From contig SHMQ01000057.1 of assembly GCA_008534395.1 (NCBI GenBank), positions 1 to 5,727 on the forward strand: a stretch of DNA of 5,727 nucleotides, given 5' to 3'. The stretch comes from Candidatus Acidulodesulfobacterium acidiphilum (GTDB lineage Bacteria; SZUA-79; Acidulodesulfobacterales; Acidulodesulfobacteraceae). Made by a program: the position numbers and the translations under genes. Positions 249 to 5,727 of the stretch are shown one piece after another (position 1 is the stretch's first letter; each line of letters opens with the position of its first letter). The notes under the pieces were generated by a model. The model saw nothing but the letters and a program-made list of their open reading frames with translations, was not told the origin of the DNA and ran no database searches.

Positions 249-647
249 TTATTTAATTTTAACTTTAACAAATTCTTTTACATTCTCTGCAATATATATC
301 GCTTGATTGCTTTCTTCAACGGACGGTAGATAAAAGTCGTCCGGATATCTCGCTTCGATAGAATAATTTGTTAATCTATCGGCATCGTTATCCGATATTA
401 GTTGTTCAAAATCTTTATCTATATCCTTGCAGTAATCGATTAATTCGCTAATATCGTGAGTTTTTAAAGATTTTATTATTTCTATACCGTTGAAAACAAG
501 ATATGCTTTTAAATATTTTTCAACGCACTGCTGGGCGTGAAAACAGACGGTGTCGGTAGCGGGATCGTTTGCGGTTATTTCATCTTTAGCCGTTTTCAGA
601 TCATGGTCTGCTTTAATTATCCAGAGATTTACTAATTCGTCATTCAT
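249..647 (-). CDS. HEPN domain protein, toxin-side partner of an MNT nucleotidyltransferase
   Basis: This is a 132-residue, all-helical protein of the HEPN family (the PF05168-like group). Family hallmarks are visible: an ADHDLKTAK stretch at about residues 13-21, CFHAQQCVEKYLKAYL at about 35-50, THDI at 63-66 and the closing SIEARYPDD at about 96-104. In known HepT/MntA systems the HEPN protein is an RNase toxin and its partner neutralises it by adding AMP to a tyrosine. Here the RNase signature of many HEPN toxins (Arg, 4-6 residues, His) is not seen: the arginines at 91 and 100 have no His after them. So RNase activity is uncertain; it may be a non-nuclease HEPN acting as a partner subunit. 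The start codon overlaps the stop of the upstream MNT gene in an ATGA arrangement, which implies translational coupling. Family assignment is confident; the toxic activity is inferred from gene pairing. Confidence 0.88.
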   Translation of the reverse strand: MNDELVNLWIIKADHDLKTAKDEITANDPATDTVCFHAQQCVEKYLKAYLVFNGIEIIKSLKTHDISELIDYCKDIDKDFEQLISDNDADRLTNYSIEARYPDDFYLPSVEESNQAIYIAENVKEFVKVKIK

Positions 648-979
648 ACGGCTAAGCCTTCTTTTAATGCAAAATATGCTACATAACCGGATTGTTTTTT
701 TCTTTCGTTTACGATATTAAGAGGCTGAATAAGTATATCGCTCGATATTCTTAATTTATTTCTCAGTCCCCTTCTAATATCTCCGGATACTCTTATTTTT
801 GTATCTCTTTCCATATTTTTATCTACGACGACATAAAAGTCCCAATCGCTATCCTCTTTATAGTCACCTCTTGCACGGGAACCGAAAAGATAAATTGCTT
901 CGGTTTTATATCCAGCTTTTTCGACTTCTTCAGTAATTATTAGTTTTGCGGTATTTAATATATAATTTTTATTTTCCAT
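644..979 (-). CDS. MNT-type nucleotidyltransferase, antitoxin of the HEPN/MNT pair
   Basis: This is a 111-residue minimal nucleotidyltransferase of the DNA polymerase beta fold. The catalytic signature is intact: GSRARG at residues 33-38, then the SDWD metal-binding pair (Asp45, Asp47) after the usual gap, and a third candidate acidic residue, Asp81, in the strand SSDILI. In characterised MntA proteins these residues bind metal and ATP and the enzyme transfers AMP to the paired HEPN toxin, silencing it; that chemistry is inferred here from the family. The gene is first in a two-gene unit and overlaps the HEPN gene by 4 bases. No Shine-Dalgarno sequence precedes its ATG, and a TATAAT box ends only 6 bases upstream, so the mRNA may have almost no leader. 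Family assignment is secure because all motif residues are present; the target is inferred. Confidence 0.92.
   Translation of the reverse strand: MENKNYILNTAKLIITEEVEKAGYKTEAIYLFGSRARGDYKEDSDWDFYVVVDKNMERDTKIRVSGDIRRGLRNKLRISSDILIQPLNIVNERKKQSGYVAYFALKEGLAV
657..662 (-). promoter_or_regulatory. Ribosome binding site of the HEPN gene
   Basis: On the minus strand an AGAAGG lies 9 bases before the HEPN ATG, inside the end of the MNT coding sequence. It supports the chosen start codon and translation of the second gene from a shared mRNA. Confidence 0.55.
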
Positions 980-1100: not shown

Positions 1101-1231
1101 TCCATATTCGCACTCTCGACTGCGTTTGACTTGGTCGGGATGTTTTTGTTTAATAAAATAATGTATGAAGTGTGAACACTGCCGGAAATAACCATTAACG
1201 TTCGGTTAACGCCTCTATAACCCCCTGCGGT

Positions 1232-1271
1232 CAAGCGTGCATACGCTTGTCAGGTTCGGGCGGAAGCCCGA
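1232..1271. repeat. Tandem pair of perfect short hairpins
   Basis: There are two adjacent hairpins: caagcgt/acgcttg (1232-1238 with 1243-1249, 4-base loop gcat) and tcgggc/gcccga (1256-1261 with 1266-1271, 4-base loop ggaa). Both stems are perfect and separated by 6 bases. They are markedly GC-richer than the surroundings. Neither is followed by a U-run on either strand. Confidence 0.55.
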
Positions 1272-1287
1272 TACAATGCTTTTAAAT

Positions 1288-1381
1288 GTTTGTTTCGCCG
1301 TAGTTTAATTTTGCCGCAAGGCTTGGTTTTCAAACCGCTTGCCGGTTTGGAAACCAAAATAAAACGAAGCAAGAAACAAAC
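1288..1381. repeat. Branched inverted-repeat structure, possible structured RNA
   Basis: This is a nested set of complementary arms. The outer stem gtttgtttc (1288-1296) pairs perfectly with 1373-1381. Next, 1303-1310 pairs with 1358-1365 with one mismatch. Inside lie a mini-hairpin gcc-gcaa-ggc (1313-1322), whose GCAA loop fits the GNRA type, and a 15-bp hairpin, 1323-1337 with 1343-1357, whose single non-Watson-Crick position would be a U-G wobble on the plus-strand RNA. The whole would fold as a three-way junction. The wobble and the GNRA loop favour a plus-strand RNA, but a DNA cruciform or a recombinase or relaxase substrate is equally possible. I recognise no known RNA family. Confidence 0.55.
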
Positions 1382-1403
1382 CTCAACATCGTTGTTTAAA
1401 TTG

Positions 1404-1445
1404 TTGCGGATTACAAAATTAATTAATTCTGCAATATATCCGCAA
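1404..1445. repeat. 8-bp inverted repeat with AT-rich loop
   Basis: Perfect arms ttgcggat (1404-1411) and atccgcaa (1438-1445) enclose a 26-base AT-rich loop. It sits between the branched structure and the 19-bp hairpin and looks like part of one array of stems. Confidence 0.45.
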
Positions 1446-1449
1446 ACCC

Positions 1450-1499
1450 GCTCTCTGTTTGTATTTTTGAGCTTTAGCGAAAAAATACAAACAGAGAGC
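1450..1499. repeat. Perfect 19-bp stem-loop
   Basis: The arm at 1450-1468 (gctctctgtttgtattttt) is exactly complementary to 1481-1499. The 12-base loop itself contains gc/gc pairs flanked by opposed GA/GA positions, which could extend the helix. No T-run follows on either strand, so it is not a standard terminator. A perfect stem this long is far above chance in 5.7 kb and suggests selection or recent origin, for example a mobile-element end, a regulatory RNA or a protein-binding cruciform. Confidence 0.7.
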
Positions 1500-1590: not shown

Positions 1591-1606
1591 TTTGCAACGT
1601 TCAATA

Positions 1607-1626
1607 ATATATGCTAAAACATATAT
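1607..1626. promoter_or_regulatory. AT-rich palindrome, possible operator
   Basis: Perfect 7-bp arms atatatg (1607-1613) and catatat (1620-1626) surround a 6-base centre, 36-55 bases before the NusA-like start codon and just downstream of the candidate promoter. The placement suits a repressor operator or a leader hairpin; AT richness makes chance more likely than for the GC-rich stems. Confidence 0.3.
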
Positions 1627-1661
1627 CATGAATAAATTAACTTATTTAATGAATAATTTTT

Positions 1662-2483
1662 ATGGAACGGTTTCAGGATATTAAAAACATAATTCGGACA
1701 ATATCGTCAACGAATGGATTAAGTATGCCAGAGGCTATATTTATTATAGAAAAAGCGATGGAAAACGTTTTTTACGGCAAATACAGGGTTGTATTTGATG
1801 ATTCCTATGATTTATACGCCGAAAACGATGATGAAAAGATACTTATATCGTCGCTTAAGGACGTGAGAAATATCAGGCATAAGATATTTTTAAAAGTTAT
1901 TAACCTGAAAAATGAGTATATAAGCAATTTGAGAGACAGCATTTCTCTTAAAGAGATAGTTTTGGAGATTAACAAAGAAGCCAATAAATTAAGCACTTCA
2001 AAGGATTGGGTTAAATATAATTATTTAATTTCTAAACACATTAGGGGTATGATAGTATCTAAAACGGACGAGTTCTACATTGTTGATATAGGGGTGGGTA
2101 AAATCGCATATTTGCCGTTATCGGAAGGTTATTACGAAACTTTTAAAAAATATCCATTTTTCGTTAAAAGCGTTGTCCGTCATTTCGACAAAGGTTTTGT
2201 CCGTATATTTTTATCTAAGCCTAAAATAAAAGCGAAACAGGAACGTTCCGGCAAGAAGTTGACGGAAATATTTAAAGACGGCAAGACGGGAAAAGTCGTA
2301 AGTCATAAAATAACTGTATTGGTTACGGATAGTTTTGTATGGGTTTACGAAACGAATCATAAACCCATACAGCATACGGAAACGCTTTATAGAAAAGAAT
2401 TTGTGAAAGGAGATAATTTATCGCGCGTGATAGCCTTATCCGAAGCGGAAAGTTTTTTTAGGCAAATTAATAAAAAGTCTTGA
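1662..2483 (+). CDS. NusA-like protein with N-terminal NusA-type and S1 domains, no clear KH domains
   Basis: This is a 273-residue soluble protein. Residues about 1-115 follow the layout of the NusA N-terminal domain: a helix with GLSMPEAIFIIEKAMENVF (about 19-37), compare the NusA pattern GIS..E.I..IE.AL..AY, then a short beta segment. Residues about 118-187 look like an S1 RNA-binding domain in the NusA style: IRGMIVSKTDEFYIVDIG, the KIAYLPLSEGYYE strand-turn, FFVKSVVRHFDKG, and FVRIFLSK in place of the IxxSR ending. NusA binds RNA polymerase and nascent RNA and controls pausing, termination and antitermination. Full NusA is usually well over 340 residues with two KH domains; here about 85 C-terminal residues follow S1 with no GxxG motif, so KH domains appear absent or replaced. 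I infer a divergent accessory NusA paralogue or element-encoded transcription modifier. The ATG at 1662 lacks a clear Shine-Dalgarno. Assignment is by pattern recognition, without alignment. Confidence 0.6.
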   Translation: MERFQDIKNIIRTISSTNGLSMPEAIFIIEKAMENVFYGKYRVVFDDSYDLYAENDDEKILISSLKDVRNIRHKIFLKVINLKNEYISNLRDSISLKEIVLEINKEANKLSTSKDWVKYNYLISKHIRGMIVSKTDEFYIVDIGVGKIAYLPLSEGYYETFKKYPFFVKSVVRHFDKGFVRIFLSKPKIKAKQERSGKKLTEIFKDGKTGKVVSHKITVLVTDSFVWVYETNHKPIQHTETLYRKEFVKGDNLSRVIALSEAESFFRQINKKS

Positions 2484-2509
2484 CATAGAATTTAAAAATA
2501 TGAGAAAAT
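2480..2509 (+). promoter_or_regulatory. Candidate promoter reading into the non-coding region
   Basis: A consensus TTGACA (2480-2485) overlaps the TGA stop of the NusA-like gene. Eighteen bases on is GAAAAT (2504-2509, 4 of 6), preceded by TG at 2501-2502 as in extended -10 promoters. Transcription would begin near 2516 and run into about 1 kb without a convincing ORF, so it may drive a non-coding RNA or the long leader of the recombinase operon. Confidence 0.45.
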
Positions 2510-2538
2510 AAAATCAATTAATTAGAAATATCTTTCAT

Positions 2539-2578
2539 GCTTCGTTTACGGTATCTCTCTTAAGAGAAAAACGAAAGC
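2539..2578. repeat. Stem-loop with 12-bp palindrome
   Basis: Outer arms gctt-cgttt (2539-2547) pair with aaacg-a-aagc (2569-2578), with one bulged base. The inner part is a perfect palindrome, tctctt/aagaga (2556-2567). It begins about 23 bases after the predicted start of transcription at 2516, as expected for a folded 5' region of an RNA. No U-run follows. Confidence 0.5.
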
Positions 2579-2637
2579 ACTGCCGGTTATGCACACATTT
2601 TGTTTACCTTTTTCAAGTAGTATTTTTGGGGGTGTGT

Positions 2638-2672
2638 TCAGCAAGAGCTTTTTAGATTAAACAACTTGCTGA
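2638..2672. repeat. 8-bp inverted repeat
   Basis: Perfect arms tcagcaag (2638-2645) and cttgctga (2665-2672) enclose a 19-base loop. This is the second stem downstream of the candidate promoter at 2480-2509. Confidence 0.45.
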
Positions 2673-2824
2673 TTAGCTTAAAACCGGAAATTATAACAAA
2701 AAGCGAAAAGATTTTAAATTCAAAACTTAAAATCAACAAAAGGGATACCACTGAAAATTTATCCCCGAAGATTTATCCACGCGGTTGAGTTTTAAAATTA
2801 TTATTTTAAAGTAGACACCGCCGT

Positions 2825-2880
2825 TAGATAATTGCCTTTAATAATTATCTATTTTATCCATTCTACGGACAATTTTGTCC
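2825..2880. repeat. Two inverted repeats beside the AT-rich block
   Basis: Tagataatt (2825-2833) pairs perfectly with aattatcta (2843-2851) around a 9-base loop. A few bases later ggacaa/ttgtcc (2867-2872 with 2875-2880) forms a near-palindrome with two central bases. These could be binding sites for an initiator or recombinase at the edge of the AT-rich region. Confidence 0.45.
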
Positions 2881-3040
2881 AAAAATCCTAAATTTAAATA
2901 ATATTAAAAATTATTTATTATTATTTAAATCCTATTAGAAATTATTATTTATTTTATTATAATATCCGCTTTTACGGATAATCTATAATTCTTTAAATAA
3001 TAAAACATTAATAAAATCCTTAAAATTTTAAATTTATTTA
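2881..3040. other. Extremely AT-rich block, possible DNA unwinding element
   Basis: By hand count only 17 of 160 bases are G or C, well below the neighbouring genes. It includes internal repeats: attattattta at 2917-2927 and 2941-2951, a 10-bp inverted repeat made of tttaaataat and attatttaaa, and the hairpin tatccg/cggata (2963-2968 with 2975-2980). Low duplex stability next to DnaA-box-like motifs suits an origin, but AT-rich intergenic DNA is common in low-GC genomes. Confidence 0.5.
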
Positions 3041-3093
3041 ACACCTGTTTTCAGGTATAGGGATATTTTTATTTTTTTAGGATTTTACTTTTT

Positions 3094-3277
3094 GGCGGTC
3101 ATAGCATTTCTTTGTTTTATTCAATTTACCGCCCCCTAACGCAAATCACGCTAATCTATTTTACACACCCCCGCCTTAAAGGCGGAGAGAAAGATTTGCG
3201 GCACTAAAACGCCCGTATTGCCGGGAAACTTCTTATCTAAAAAATATATAATAAAACTGCATACCCAGTTATGCGGT
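3094..3277. repeat. Cluster of GC-rich stem-loops
   Basis: Several perfect or near-perfect stems occur in a row. Ggcggt/accgcc (3094-3099 with 3128-3133) is followed by cgcaaatc/gatttgcg (3140-3147 with 3193-3200), which encloses the tight hairpin ccgcc/ggcgg (3171-3175 with 3181-3185). Then come cccg/cggg (3212-3215 with 3222-3225) and actgcata with tatgcggt (3256-3263 with 3270-3277, one T-G position). The cluster resembles a folded RNA or a set of single-strand hairpins of the kind used at oriT or integron sites, but it matches no family I can name. Confidence 0.5.
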
Positions 3278-3404
3278 TCATTCCTGTTTCAAACAATCCC
3301 ATTATTTTAGGCTTTTCAAAGATTTTATCGCCGCTAATTTAGCCCGTCGGAGCTTTTTTGCAACAAACCATTCCGATTTTATTCAAACAAGAAAATCTTA
3401 ACGC

Positions 3405-3449
3405 TTTGTTTATGCGCTTTTCTTAATTAATTTAAGAAAAATAAACAAA
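3405..3449. repeat. Interrupted 18-bp inverted repeat upstream of the recombinase
   Basis: The arm ttttcttaa (3418-3426) pairs perfectly with ttaagaaaa (3432-3440) across a 5-base centre. The helix continues as tttgtttat (3405-3413) with ataaacaaa (3441-3449), interrupted only by a 4-base gcgc on the left side. It sits about 90 bases before the recombinase ATG. Two opposed arms around a short spacer are the geometry of a tyrosine recombinase core site, so this may be an attachment or autoregulatory site; a leader hairpin is the alternative. Confidence 0.45.
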
Positions 3450-3524
3450 AGGACAAACACCTTTCTAAAAAGTTTCTGTTCTAAACTTATGTATGCGACA
3501 GCTTTATCTAAAATATATTTAAAT

Positions 3525-3530
3525 AGGAGA
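3525..3530 (+). promoter_or_regulatory. Ribosome binding site of the first recombinase
   Basis: AGGAGA ends 9 bases before the ATG at 3540. The earlier in-frame ATG at 3489 has no such site, so this motif decides the start codon. Confidence 0.7.
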
Positions 3531-3539
3531 TTTTGTATT

Positions 3540-4460
3540 ATGAAAGGTAGCGTAAAGTGGCAAGTTACGGAAATTTTTAAAGAGATAAAAGAAATCGGAA
3601 ATTCAAAATACGCCGCTAAAAATTTAGCACGGCAAAATGGGGCGCATGGTTCGGCTGGTATTGCAAAAGAAACGGGTATCTATGGCTATCGAACGAATGA
3701 CACATACAGGGATGATGTCGTTAAATTTGGCGATTGGGCAAAAGAAAATTTAAAACTCAAAGATCTAACCAAAACCGATGCTCCGGCCGTTATAGCATAT
3801 CTAGAAAGCCGGATAGCCGATGACAATGCACATGGTACTTTTCAGGGCGATAAAGCCGCGCTGAATAAGTTTGAAGTAGCTCTAAATAAGTACTCCCAGA
3901 GCCATAATCTTGGCAAAACTTACGACTTTAAACTCAACGAAACCTTTAAGGATAGCCATAAATCTTTGCGACACGCGGATGTCCGGGCTTACAATAAAGC
4001 AACTGTAGATAAACTTCTAAACATGGAAAACAAAGCCGTAAATCTTGCCGTTAGGTGCGCTTTAAACGCCGGCTTGCGTAAATCAGAAATCTTAAAATTA
4101 GGTTTAAAGCCAGATAGCATTACTAACAATAATATCAACGTTTACGGCGGAAAGGGCGGCAAGGATAGGACAATATCCGAAATCGCTGACAAGTCTTTAA
4201 TTACCGATATTAAAATATTTTTAAAAGAAAATAATATAGAAAAATTCGGCGATGCCGTTACTGGGAGTAAGATAAATTATGAAATCCGCAAGGTATTAGG
4301 GGATACCGGGTCAATTCACGCATTAAGGCATAACTATGCAATAAATTGCATAAAAGAATTTGAAATGAAAGGGTTTTCGCATGTCGAAGCCGTTCATTTA
4401 ACAAGCTTGCAACTCGGACACAACAGAAATGAAATTATAGAGGGGGTTTACTCAAAATGA
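3540..4460 (+). CDS. Tyrosine recombinase (phage-type integrase), complete
   Basis: This is a 306-residue site-specific recombinase from the ATG at 3540, chosen because AGGAGA sits 9 bases upstream; the ATG at 3489 would add 17 residues without a ribosome site. Residues about 46-125 form the N-terminal core-binding region (GIYGYRTNDTYRDDVVKF onward). The catalytic domain follows with every active-site residue visible: Arg180 in GLRKSEIL, a beta-hairpin Lys (205 or 208) in GGKGGKDRT, His260 and Arg263 in HALRH, His294 in LGH, and the nucleophile Tyr304 just before the C-terminus. Enzymes of this family cut and rejoin DNA at specific sites through a 3'-phosphotyrosine link. Its partner DNA site is unknown; the inverted repeat at 3405-3449 is a candidate. 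It overlaps the next gene by 4 bases. It lacks the long C-terminal tail of some integrases. Family call is firm; biological role (integration, resolution or cassette movement) is open. Confidence 0.93.
   Translation: MKGSVKWQVTEIFKEIKEIGNSKYAAKNLARQNGAHGSAGIAKETGIYGYRTNDTYRDDVVKFGDWAKENLKLKDLTKTDAPAVIAYLESRIADDNAHGTFQGDKAALNKFEVALNKYSQSHNLGKTYDFKLNETFKDSHKSLRHADVRAYNKATVDKLLNMENKAVNLAVRCALNAGLRKSEILKLGLKPDSITNNNINVYGGKGGKDRTISEIADKSLITDIKIFLKENNIEKFGDAVTGSKINYEIRKVLGDTGSIHALRHNYAINCIKEFEMKGFSHVEAVHLTSLQLGHNRNEIIEGVYSK
4441..4446 (+). promoter_or_regulatory. Ribosome binding site of the small downstream protein
   Basis: AGGGGG lies 10 bases before the ATG at 4457, within the end of the recombinase gene, and supports the overlapping start. 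Confidence 0.5.
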
Positions 4461-4897
4461 TTGATACGGAAAAATTGCAAATTTTATTAAATCGCCGCAA
4501 AGACAAATTCAGAATACTTCAGGAAACATTTAACTTAACGGCAAATCTCTTAAACATCGATATAGATAATTTTAACGATAAACTTAATGCCGCTTTAGCT
4601 AAAATTATAAACCTGCTCGAACTTGAAGCGCAATCTAAGCGGACGACTGGGCGAATCCTAACTAACAGCGACTACAAAGCTATCGGTATTTTTCAAAAAA
4701 GGATTAAAAAACTTAAAAACAAAAGAAAACCGGCATTGAAGGAAAATAGGCTCATTAGGTTAATGCCCAAAATATATAAAATTAAAGAAAAAAAGGGGCT
4801 GAGTTTTAGGGAACTAGCGGAATACATAAAGGAAAAATATCATATTGAAGTAAATTTTACTTATCTAAATAGAATTTACAAAAAGATTAACAAATAA
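4457..4897 (+). CDS. Small basic protein with helix-turn-helix-like C-terminus, function unknown
   Basis: This is a 146-residue, Lys/Arg/Asn/Ile-rich protein that I do not recognise as a named family. Residues 1-60 are predicted helical and leucine-rich (LLNRRKDKF, AALAKIINLLELEAQ), possibly a dimer helix. Residues about 80-100 are strongly basic (KRIKKLKNKRKPALK). Residues about 105-146 read like a helix-turn-helix: KEKKGLSFRELAEYIKEKYHIEVNFTYLNRIYKKI, where LSFRELAEYI would be the first helix and VNFTYLNRIYKKI the recognition helix. This suggests DNA binding. The ATG overlaps the recombinase stop in an ATGA arrangement, so the two are almost certainly translated from one mRNA and probably act together, for instance as a recombination directionality factor or accessory DNA-bending protein. 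That role is inferred from position only. Confidence 0.75.
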   Translation: MIDTEKLQILLNRRKDKFRILQETFNLTANLLNIDIDNFNDKLNAALAKIINLLELEAQSKRTTGRILTNSDYKAIGIFQKRIKKLKNKRKPALKENRLIRLMPKIYKIKEKKGLSFRELAEYIKEKYHIEVNFTYLNRIYKKINK

Positions 4898-4931: not shown

Positions 4932-5159
4932 ATGAAAAAACTCTTAACGGTTAAAGATGTTGCGGATTTGTTATGCGTAAGCCCGAAGACGCTTTACCAG
5001 TGGGCTGAATACGGGTCTATCCCCTGCTTTAAACTTAACGGAAGCTTAAGGTTCGACGAAGAAAAAATAACCGAATGGGTAAATTCTAATGAAAAAAAAT
5101 CAATTGTTGGGTATAATAACCTTAAAGGCGGAGTGCCCATGAAAAGGAGGTGTAATTAA
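4932..5159 (+). CDS. Excisionase-type helix-turn-helix DNA-binding protein
   Basis: This is a 75-residue protein of the excisionase/AlpA-like group with a MerR-type winged helix-turn-helix (HTH_17 style). The domain spans residues about 4-51: LLTVKDVADLLCVSPKTLYQWAEYGSIPCFKLNGSLRF, followed by DEEKITEWV. The TVKDVADLL..S..TLY.W pattern and the wing (GSLRF) are characteristic. Such proteins bind near attachment sites to direct excision, or regulate the adjacent integrase. It ends 2 bases before the second integrase gene, and the tail (from about residue 52) is a Lys/Gly-rich extension that carries the next gene's ribosome site in its codons. GGGAG at 4913-4917 is 14 bases from the ATG, longer than usual; a 10-codon mini-frame (4903-4935) ends on this start codon and might couple translation. 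Confidence 0.88.
   Translation: MKKLLTVKDVADLLCVSPKTLYQWAEYGSIPCFKLNGSLRFDEEKITEWVNSNEKKSIVGYNNLKGGVPMKRRCN
5145..5151 (+). promoter_or_regulatory. Strong ribosome binding site of the second integrase
   Basis: AGGAGGT, the full Shine-Dalgarno core, lies 10 bases before the ATG at 5162 and within the last codons of the excisionase-like gene. It fixes the start of the second integrase. Confidence 0.75.
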
Positions 5160-5161
5160 AC

Positions 5162-5727
5162 ATGGGCATCTTCAGACGAAAAGGGTCGGAATTTTACTGG
5201 ATGGATATAATCGCAAACGGCAAAAGATACCGGGAGTCCACGAAGTCCAAAAACAAAAAACAAGCCGAAGCGGTTTACGCAAACAGGTATTTTGAAATCG
5301 TAAACGGAAAAACGATTAAAAATGTCGAACCTAAGGCAAAGGAAGACAGATTCACCTTTGCGGAGCTTGCGGAAAAATATTTGGCGTGGGTTTACGGAAA
5401 ACAGGTATCGTACGGCAATAAAAAATCCGCTATAAATTGCTTTTTTATAAACAGGTTTAAATATTTAGACGATATTAAAATCTACGATATAGAAAAGCTG
5501 CAAAGCGAATTAATCGCAAAGGGGTATCAAAAATCCTATATCAATAAAACGTTTTCGGTATTTAAGCATATGTTTACGAAAGCGTTAGATTGGGAAATGA
5601 TCGACGAAAGCGCTTTGCAAAGGGTAAGAAGGGTTAAAAACCTAACCGGCACAAATAAAATCCTAAGGTATCTGACCAAAGAAGAAATAGAAGTCTTAAT
5701 CTCAAACTGTCCGCCGCATTTAAAACC
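5162..5727 (+). CDS. Second tyrosine recombinase/integrase, 3' end cut by the window edge
   Basis: An uninterrupted frame of 188 codons plus 2 bases runs from an ATG with a strong Shine-Dalgarno to the edge of the window. The N-terminus (MGIFRRKGSEFYWMDIIANGK) is typical of integrases with a small arm-binding domain: a beta-stranded start, then RYRESTKSKNKKQAEAVYANRYFEIVNGK to about residue 50. The core-binding domain follows at about 63-150 (FTFAELAEKYLAWVYGK, the helix ending in KTFSVFKHMFTKALDWEMI). The catalytic domain has just begun (RYLTKEEIEVLISNCPPHLK, about 169-188); all active-site residues lie beyond the edge. Integrases of this class are usually 330-400 residues. The sequence shows no obvious similarity to the first recombinase outside the general family plan. 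It forms a unit with the excisionase-like gene 2 bases upstream, a standard integration-excision module. Confidence 0.88.
   Translation, partial: MGIFRRKGSEFYWMDIIANGKRYRESTKSKNKKQAEAVYANRYFEIVNGKTIKNVEPKAKEDRFTFAELAEKYLAWVYGKQVSYGNKKSAINCFFINRFKYLDDIKIYDIEKLQSELIAKGYQKSYINKTFSVFKHMFTKALDWEMIDESALQRVRRVKNLTGTNKILRYLTKEEIEVLISNCPPHLK

Follow-up and report, generated by a model that had tools for sequence, protein, structure and literature searches.

A putative accessory transcription elongation factor: a NusA-like protein without KH domains, encoded on mobile elements in one bacterial family

Accessory paralogues of NusG that turn on acquired operons are well known, whereas NusA is regarded as one core gene. 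We found no NusA paralogues in the literature (open-access papers). The N-terminal domain (NTD) of NusA alone suffices for binding to RNA polymerase (RNAP) and for enhancement of hairpin pauses, while its S1, KH1 and KH2 domains are RNA readers (PMC12288461, PMC4642336). LoaP, a NusG paralogue, acts through a hairpin that it reads in a leader RNA and by antagonism to NusA (PMC12691694), and it is the closest functional precedent for the role proposed here for the NusA-like protein. RfaH, LoaP and UpxY resemble this protein in concept, as accessory paralogues of a core elongation factor that are linked with acquired operons; they are NusG-derived, whereas the present family appears to be NusA-derived.

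We analysed a stretch of 5,727 nucleotides (the window), in which a preliminary description had proposed a shortened NusA-like reading frame beside recombinases and a toxin-antitoxin pair. The reading frame is confirmed, and its neighbours do include a HEPN/MNT pair, two tyrosine recombinases or integrases and an Xis-like protein. The features are as follows.

249-647, minus strand: HEPN protein of a HEPN/MNT (type VII) toxin-antitoxin pair (E 1.6e-26)
644-979, minus strand: MNT nucleotidyltransferase antitoxin (domain match)
1206-1499, plus strand: structured non-coding element with hairpins and a long terminal hairpin at 1450-1499 (fold z -7.5; covariation; dispersed)
1591-1661, plus strand: conserved 5' region tied to the NusA-like gene (88-96% identity upstream of the orthologues in genomes G020, G028 and G023)
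1662-2483, plus strand: KH-less NusA-like gene (ATG start, 273 aa), with a NusA-NTD-like part (residues ~5-125), an S1-like part (~125-188) and a lineage-specific C-terminal domain (~200-272)
2484-2605, plus strand: 3' flank conserved with the NusA-like gene (~80% in G020/G028)
2587-3167, no strand: non-coding region rich in A+T (17-19% GC at 2800-3100); DnaA-box-like motifs lie at 2587, 2773 and 3159
3489-4460, plus strand: tyrosine recombinase, XerA/XerC/integron-integrase-like; the region upstream (~3008-3533) is part of its module
4457-4897, plus strand: 146-aa protein, C-terminally helix-turn-helix-like, usually paired with the recombinase
4932-5159, plus strand: excisionase (Xis)-like HTH_17 protein (domain match)
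5162-5725, plus strand: second tyrosine integrase, truncated where the contig ends (full-length homologue at 141-1226 of locus L066)

The NusA-like family is present in nine of 30 genomes of one bacterial family. Identities to the 273-aa protein run from 100% (G019, a different genus) through 91, 75, 71, 69 and 43 down to ~33%. No relatives were found in ~165 genera outside this bacterial family, nor in phages, plasmids or IMG/VR; weak matches outside it were rejected as relatives, being ribosomal S1 or rpoA/rps neighbours. Searches of the reading frame against Pfam (E<=1), PHROGs, PADLOC and PDB sequences gave no match, and its best NCBIfam hit (E 0.026) is a chance match. Among six homologues all 15 pairwise comparisons gave a dN/dS of 0.21-0.36, and 1662-2483 is therefore a real gene under purifying selection. 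The loss of the KH domains and the divergent sequence could also be expected of a functionless, decayed former nusA copy, but this idea is highly improbable and is refuted by the selection on the coding sequence; there are likewise no internal stops, and both the C-terminal domain and the 5' flank are conserved.

The genome has its own complete nusA, as an independent check suggested in the preliminary description bears out. Its one NusA_N gene above the cut-off, on contig C4, encodes 439 aa with NusA_N, S1, KH_5, KH_2 and HHH_5 domains and is directly followed by infB (IF2); the NusA-like gene lies with the recombinases on contig C57. Because a complete nusA is present beside infB, the NusA-like gene is an accessory, additional gene. 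NusA_N matches were obtained in 184 of 193 genomes; most of these have a single copy, and nine have two.

To compare the family with NusA we aligned a profile of eight NusA-like relatives with one of 20 NusAs (hhalign), with 200 column shuffles and the reversed profile as controls. The results show a single collinear alignment of family residues 5-190 with NusA residues 15-214 (E 1.3e-5). The whole profile scores 44.4 against NusA, compared with at most 25.7 for the column shuffles (n=200), 20.0 for the reversed profile and 16 for IF2. The N-terminal region alone reaches 22.2 (shuffle maximum 20.5), which is marginal by sequence. The S1 region scores 30.7 against the NusA S1 (shuffles <=19.2, 0/200 as high) and 39.8 against ribosomal S1. 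Since ribosomal S1 outscores NusA S1, the domain is a generic S1: the S1 assignment made earlier stands, while its designation as NusA-type is unsupported. It is the N-terminal region and the collinear order that carry the NusA specificity of the family. The Pfam search that had been proposed as a check matched neither domain: the reading frame has no match at E<=1, and so no NusA_N (PF08529) above cut-off and no S1, and its relatives have no NusA_N match either; the S1 domain after the NTD is supported by hhalign. Kinship with NusA is visible only by profile-profile and fold comparison.

AlphaFold2 models were built for the 273-aa protein (pLDDT 66) and for residues 1-195 (pLDDT 68); their confidence is moderate because the input alignments had 4-5 rows. 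The N-terminal part is modelled as alpha-alpha-beta-beta-beta-alpha-alpha-alpha, and residues ~3-118 match NusA NTDs end to end in about ten PDB entries (VIA-align), including 2kwp (Z 5.2, rmsd 3.6 over 88), 6tqn (Z 5.2, rmsd 2.6 over 77), 6j9e (Z 4.9) and 6flq (Z 4.4), as well as 7ubn, 8y5l, 9a74, 6gov and 6xas; 8pil is a further NusA structure matched by the longer model. Such Z values are moderate, and biotin-ligase-like folds also appear in this list within the Z 4-5 range. Based on the models, a NusA NTD fold is likely for the N-terminal part. Foldseek of the models against structures gave no significant NusA match (best NusA row E 0.1), and the S1 region is modelled with no clean OB barrel (pLDDT 40-57). 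The NusA N-terminal helix pattern reported at the outset gains from the collinear alignment and the fold matches, but has no single-sequence or Pfam match behind it, and the N-terminal part alone is weak by sequence.

The C-terminal ~85 residues had been described as unlike KH1-KH2, and they are: their score against NusA is 14.5, 31 of 200 shuffles are equally high, and no Pfam KH match was found in this part of the reading frame or in its relatives. The last ~70 residues are modelled as four strands and a helix (beta-beta-beta-beta-alpha; pLDDT ~75-85 in parts), unlike a KH domain. Overall, the initial identification of a NusA-like protein is largely supported.

Set against NusA itself (TIGR01953; NusA_N PF08529-S1-KH_5/KH_2), the family shares the collinear NTD and S1, the same N-terminal start and, as predicted with moderate confidence, probably the NTD fold. 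It differs in having an unrelated C-terminal domain in place of KH1-KH2, in falling below all NusA model thresholds, and in being encoded by an extra gene on mobile DNA and not in the nusA-infB region. Ribosomal S1 and generic S1-domain proteins resemble it in their S1 domain; unlike them, the family has a single S1 following an NTD that aligns with NusA.

The surroundings of the gene vary between genomes. It precedes the same recombinase in the window, G023 and G020. In G004, G014 and G016, by contrast, the recombinase and the region upstream of it (window ~3008-3533) are not accompanied by the NusA-like gene; the DNA conserved with the NusA-like gene is confined to its surroundings, from 1591 to ~2605. 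The NusA-like gene thus forms a separate unit of cargo that is found with different neighbours. The ~33% relatives (G023:C170, G026:C164) lie in an element where genes for int, xis, a recombinase and the RepB primase come first, then the NusA-like gene and, downstream of it, an operon for type I restriction-modification that also contains AbiU/AIPR, OLD and HNH genes. The NusA-like gene is separated by 86 bp from the first cargo gene, which is hsdR in G023. In G006 a TnpB gene is found upstream of the NusA-like gene, and genes for DndC-like and HerA proteins lie at a distance of a few kb. The recombinase neighbours in three genomes, the RepB/defence element and TnpB support the mobile-element setting that the window had suggested.

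Several further observations concern these elements. The integrative element with RepB, type I restriction, AbiU, OLD and HNH is near-identical in two genera (L066 141-16075 and L067). At L064 10899-14969 a DndC-like PAPS reductase, a protein of 380 aa in which a NurA-like motif was recognised by eye, and a HerA-like ATPase stand in a row, possibly an unrecognised defence system. The recombinase at 3489-4460 resembles XerA and integron integrases, and its distant plasmid relatives are annotated as hypothetical or site-specific integrase.

The 5' region at 1591-1661 is shared by the G020, G028 and G023 orthologue loci, beyond which the DNA differs further upstream. It contains a candidate promoter (possible -35 TTGCAA, extended -10 TGCTAAAAC) and an inverted repeat, ATATATG-CTAAAA-CATATAT, which is possibly an operator. 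A promoter-like TTGACA-18-GAAAAT is located at 2480-2509. DnaA-box-like motifs are mildly enriched in 2484-3488 (2 perfect versus 0.46 expected; 17/200 shuffles), and those of 2587-3167 are not conserved in related loci; a replication origin in 2587-3167 would be a weak guess from these motifs.

A structured non-coding region next to the gene, also claimed in the preliminary description, is borne out. The leader at 1200-1661 folds far better than shuffles (z -7.5), and in an alignment of the window with a second subtype of the 1206-1499 element 97% of cells retain the pairing, and in five pairs both partners have changed (2.0 in shuffles). The element is also found without the gene. Copies occur in 19 of the 30 genomes, several per genome and many ending at 1499; the second subtype lies upstream of other recombinases. 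In G028 and G020 the NusA-like gene is preceded by a diverged version whose terminal hairpin has the same architecture, and the distant family members have no such element upstream. We therefore rejected 1206-1499 as a private leader of the gene, as it is a dispersed element with many loci lacking the gene; its link to the NusA-like protein is one of proximity only. Possible identities are a regulatory leader, an element used in recombination or replication, and a mobile repeat. For a processive antitermination factor of the RfaH/LoaP type, acting on a defined operon, it would be a candidate cis element. An Rfam gathering search returned no family, and weaker Rfam matches were rejected as chance matches to the long near-perfect hairpin.

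The element family is ~300 nt long, with several hairpins and two subtypes that differ in the terminal hairpin (L101-L118, L084, L071, L070, L068, L069); it is scattered through one bacterial family and often lies close to genes for recombinases or replication. Positions 120-154 and 1112-1152 of the window are partial copies of another, ~55-nt hairpin repeat (TTATTTATTCTCTTACTCCCGACTGCGTTTGACGCGGCCGGGAGTTTTT), present in up to 44 copies per genome. In arrays of this repeat (L065 4405-13452) one small toxin-antitoxin-type gene lies between copies, an arrangement that calls to mind integron cassette arrays or a shared terminator.

We consider it moderately probable that the protein is an accessory factor for transcription elongation, derived from NusA and carried by integrative mobile elements of one bacterial family. 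The collinear NTD-S1 resemblance, the lack of KH resemblance, the separate nusA, selection, the mobile contexts and the identical protein in another genus argue for this; the lack of a database family or single-sequence match, the marginal NTD sequence signal, the mean pLDDT of 66-68, the Foldseek result, biotin-ligase-fold proteins at similar Z, an S1 that is not specifically NusA-like and an upstream structured element that is not confined to the gene and is missing in the distant members argue against it. The protein could instead be a generic S1-domain RNA-binding protein of the element, which might for example regulate copy number, replication or recombination by acting on structured RNA or DNA, with its NusA N-terminal likeness due to fold convergence. 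The higher score of ribosomal S1, the marginal N-terminal part, the biotin-ligase-like folds listed by VIA-align and the neighbourhood of RepB, a possible origin and recombinases fit this explanation. We regard it as somewhat unlikely, since the NusA alignment runs collinearly through NTD, linker helices and S1, ~12 points above S1 alone, and NusA NTD entries recur in the structure list in end-to-end registers.

A sub-version of the accessory elongation factor is a NusA antagonist, that is, a dominant-negative decoy on the NusA site of RNAP that would relieve NusA/Rho-dependent termination of A+T-rich foreign genes. This is a tentative possibility: a NusA-NTD-like region is kept and the KH RNA readers are absent, and LoaP is a precedent for an accessory factor that antagonises NusA (PMC12691694), yet the retained S1 and the conserved C-terminal domain argue for more than a simple decoy.

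As an accessory elongation factor, the protein would dock through its NusA-like NTD on the RNAP beta-flap near the RNA exit channel, as NusA does, and its S1 and new C-terminal domain may substitute for the KH1-KH2 RNA readers with another target specificity. It could then compete with or reprogramme host NusA at hairpins in element transcripts, either in its own structured leader or in the downstream cargo operon. In this way the element would control where its own transcripts pause and terminate, by analogy with NusG paralogues such as RfaH and LoaP. From the sequence and models an element-borne pausing, antitermination or anti-NusA function is plausible, and by analogy retuning of, or competition with, host NusA on element transcripts seems the most likely. 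A more far-reaching proposal, which we hold to be unlikely, is that these proteins are the first class of mobile-element NusA paralogues: factors without KH domains that would sit on RNAP through a NusA NTD and, by means of a C-terminal domain of their own and a structured leader RNA, bring about processive antitermination specific to the element or lift the silencing of foreign DNA, phage-defence cargo operons included.

If true, a KH-less NusA relative travelling with recombinases and anti-phage cargo would show that the NusA site on RNA polymerase is a further position hijacked by mobile DNA, and the family would represent a natural split of the RNAP-binding part of NusA from its RNA-reading KH part.
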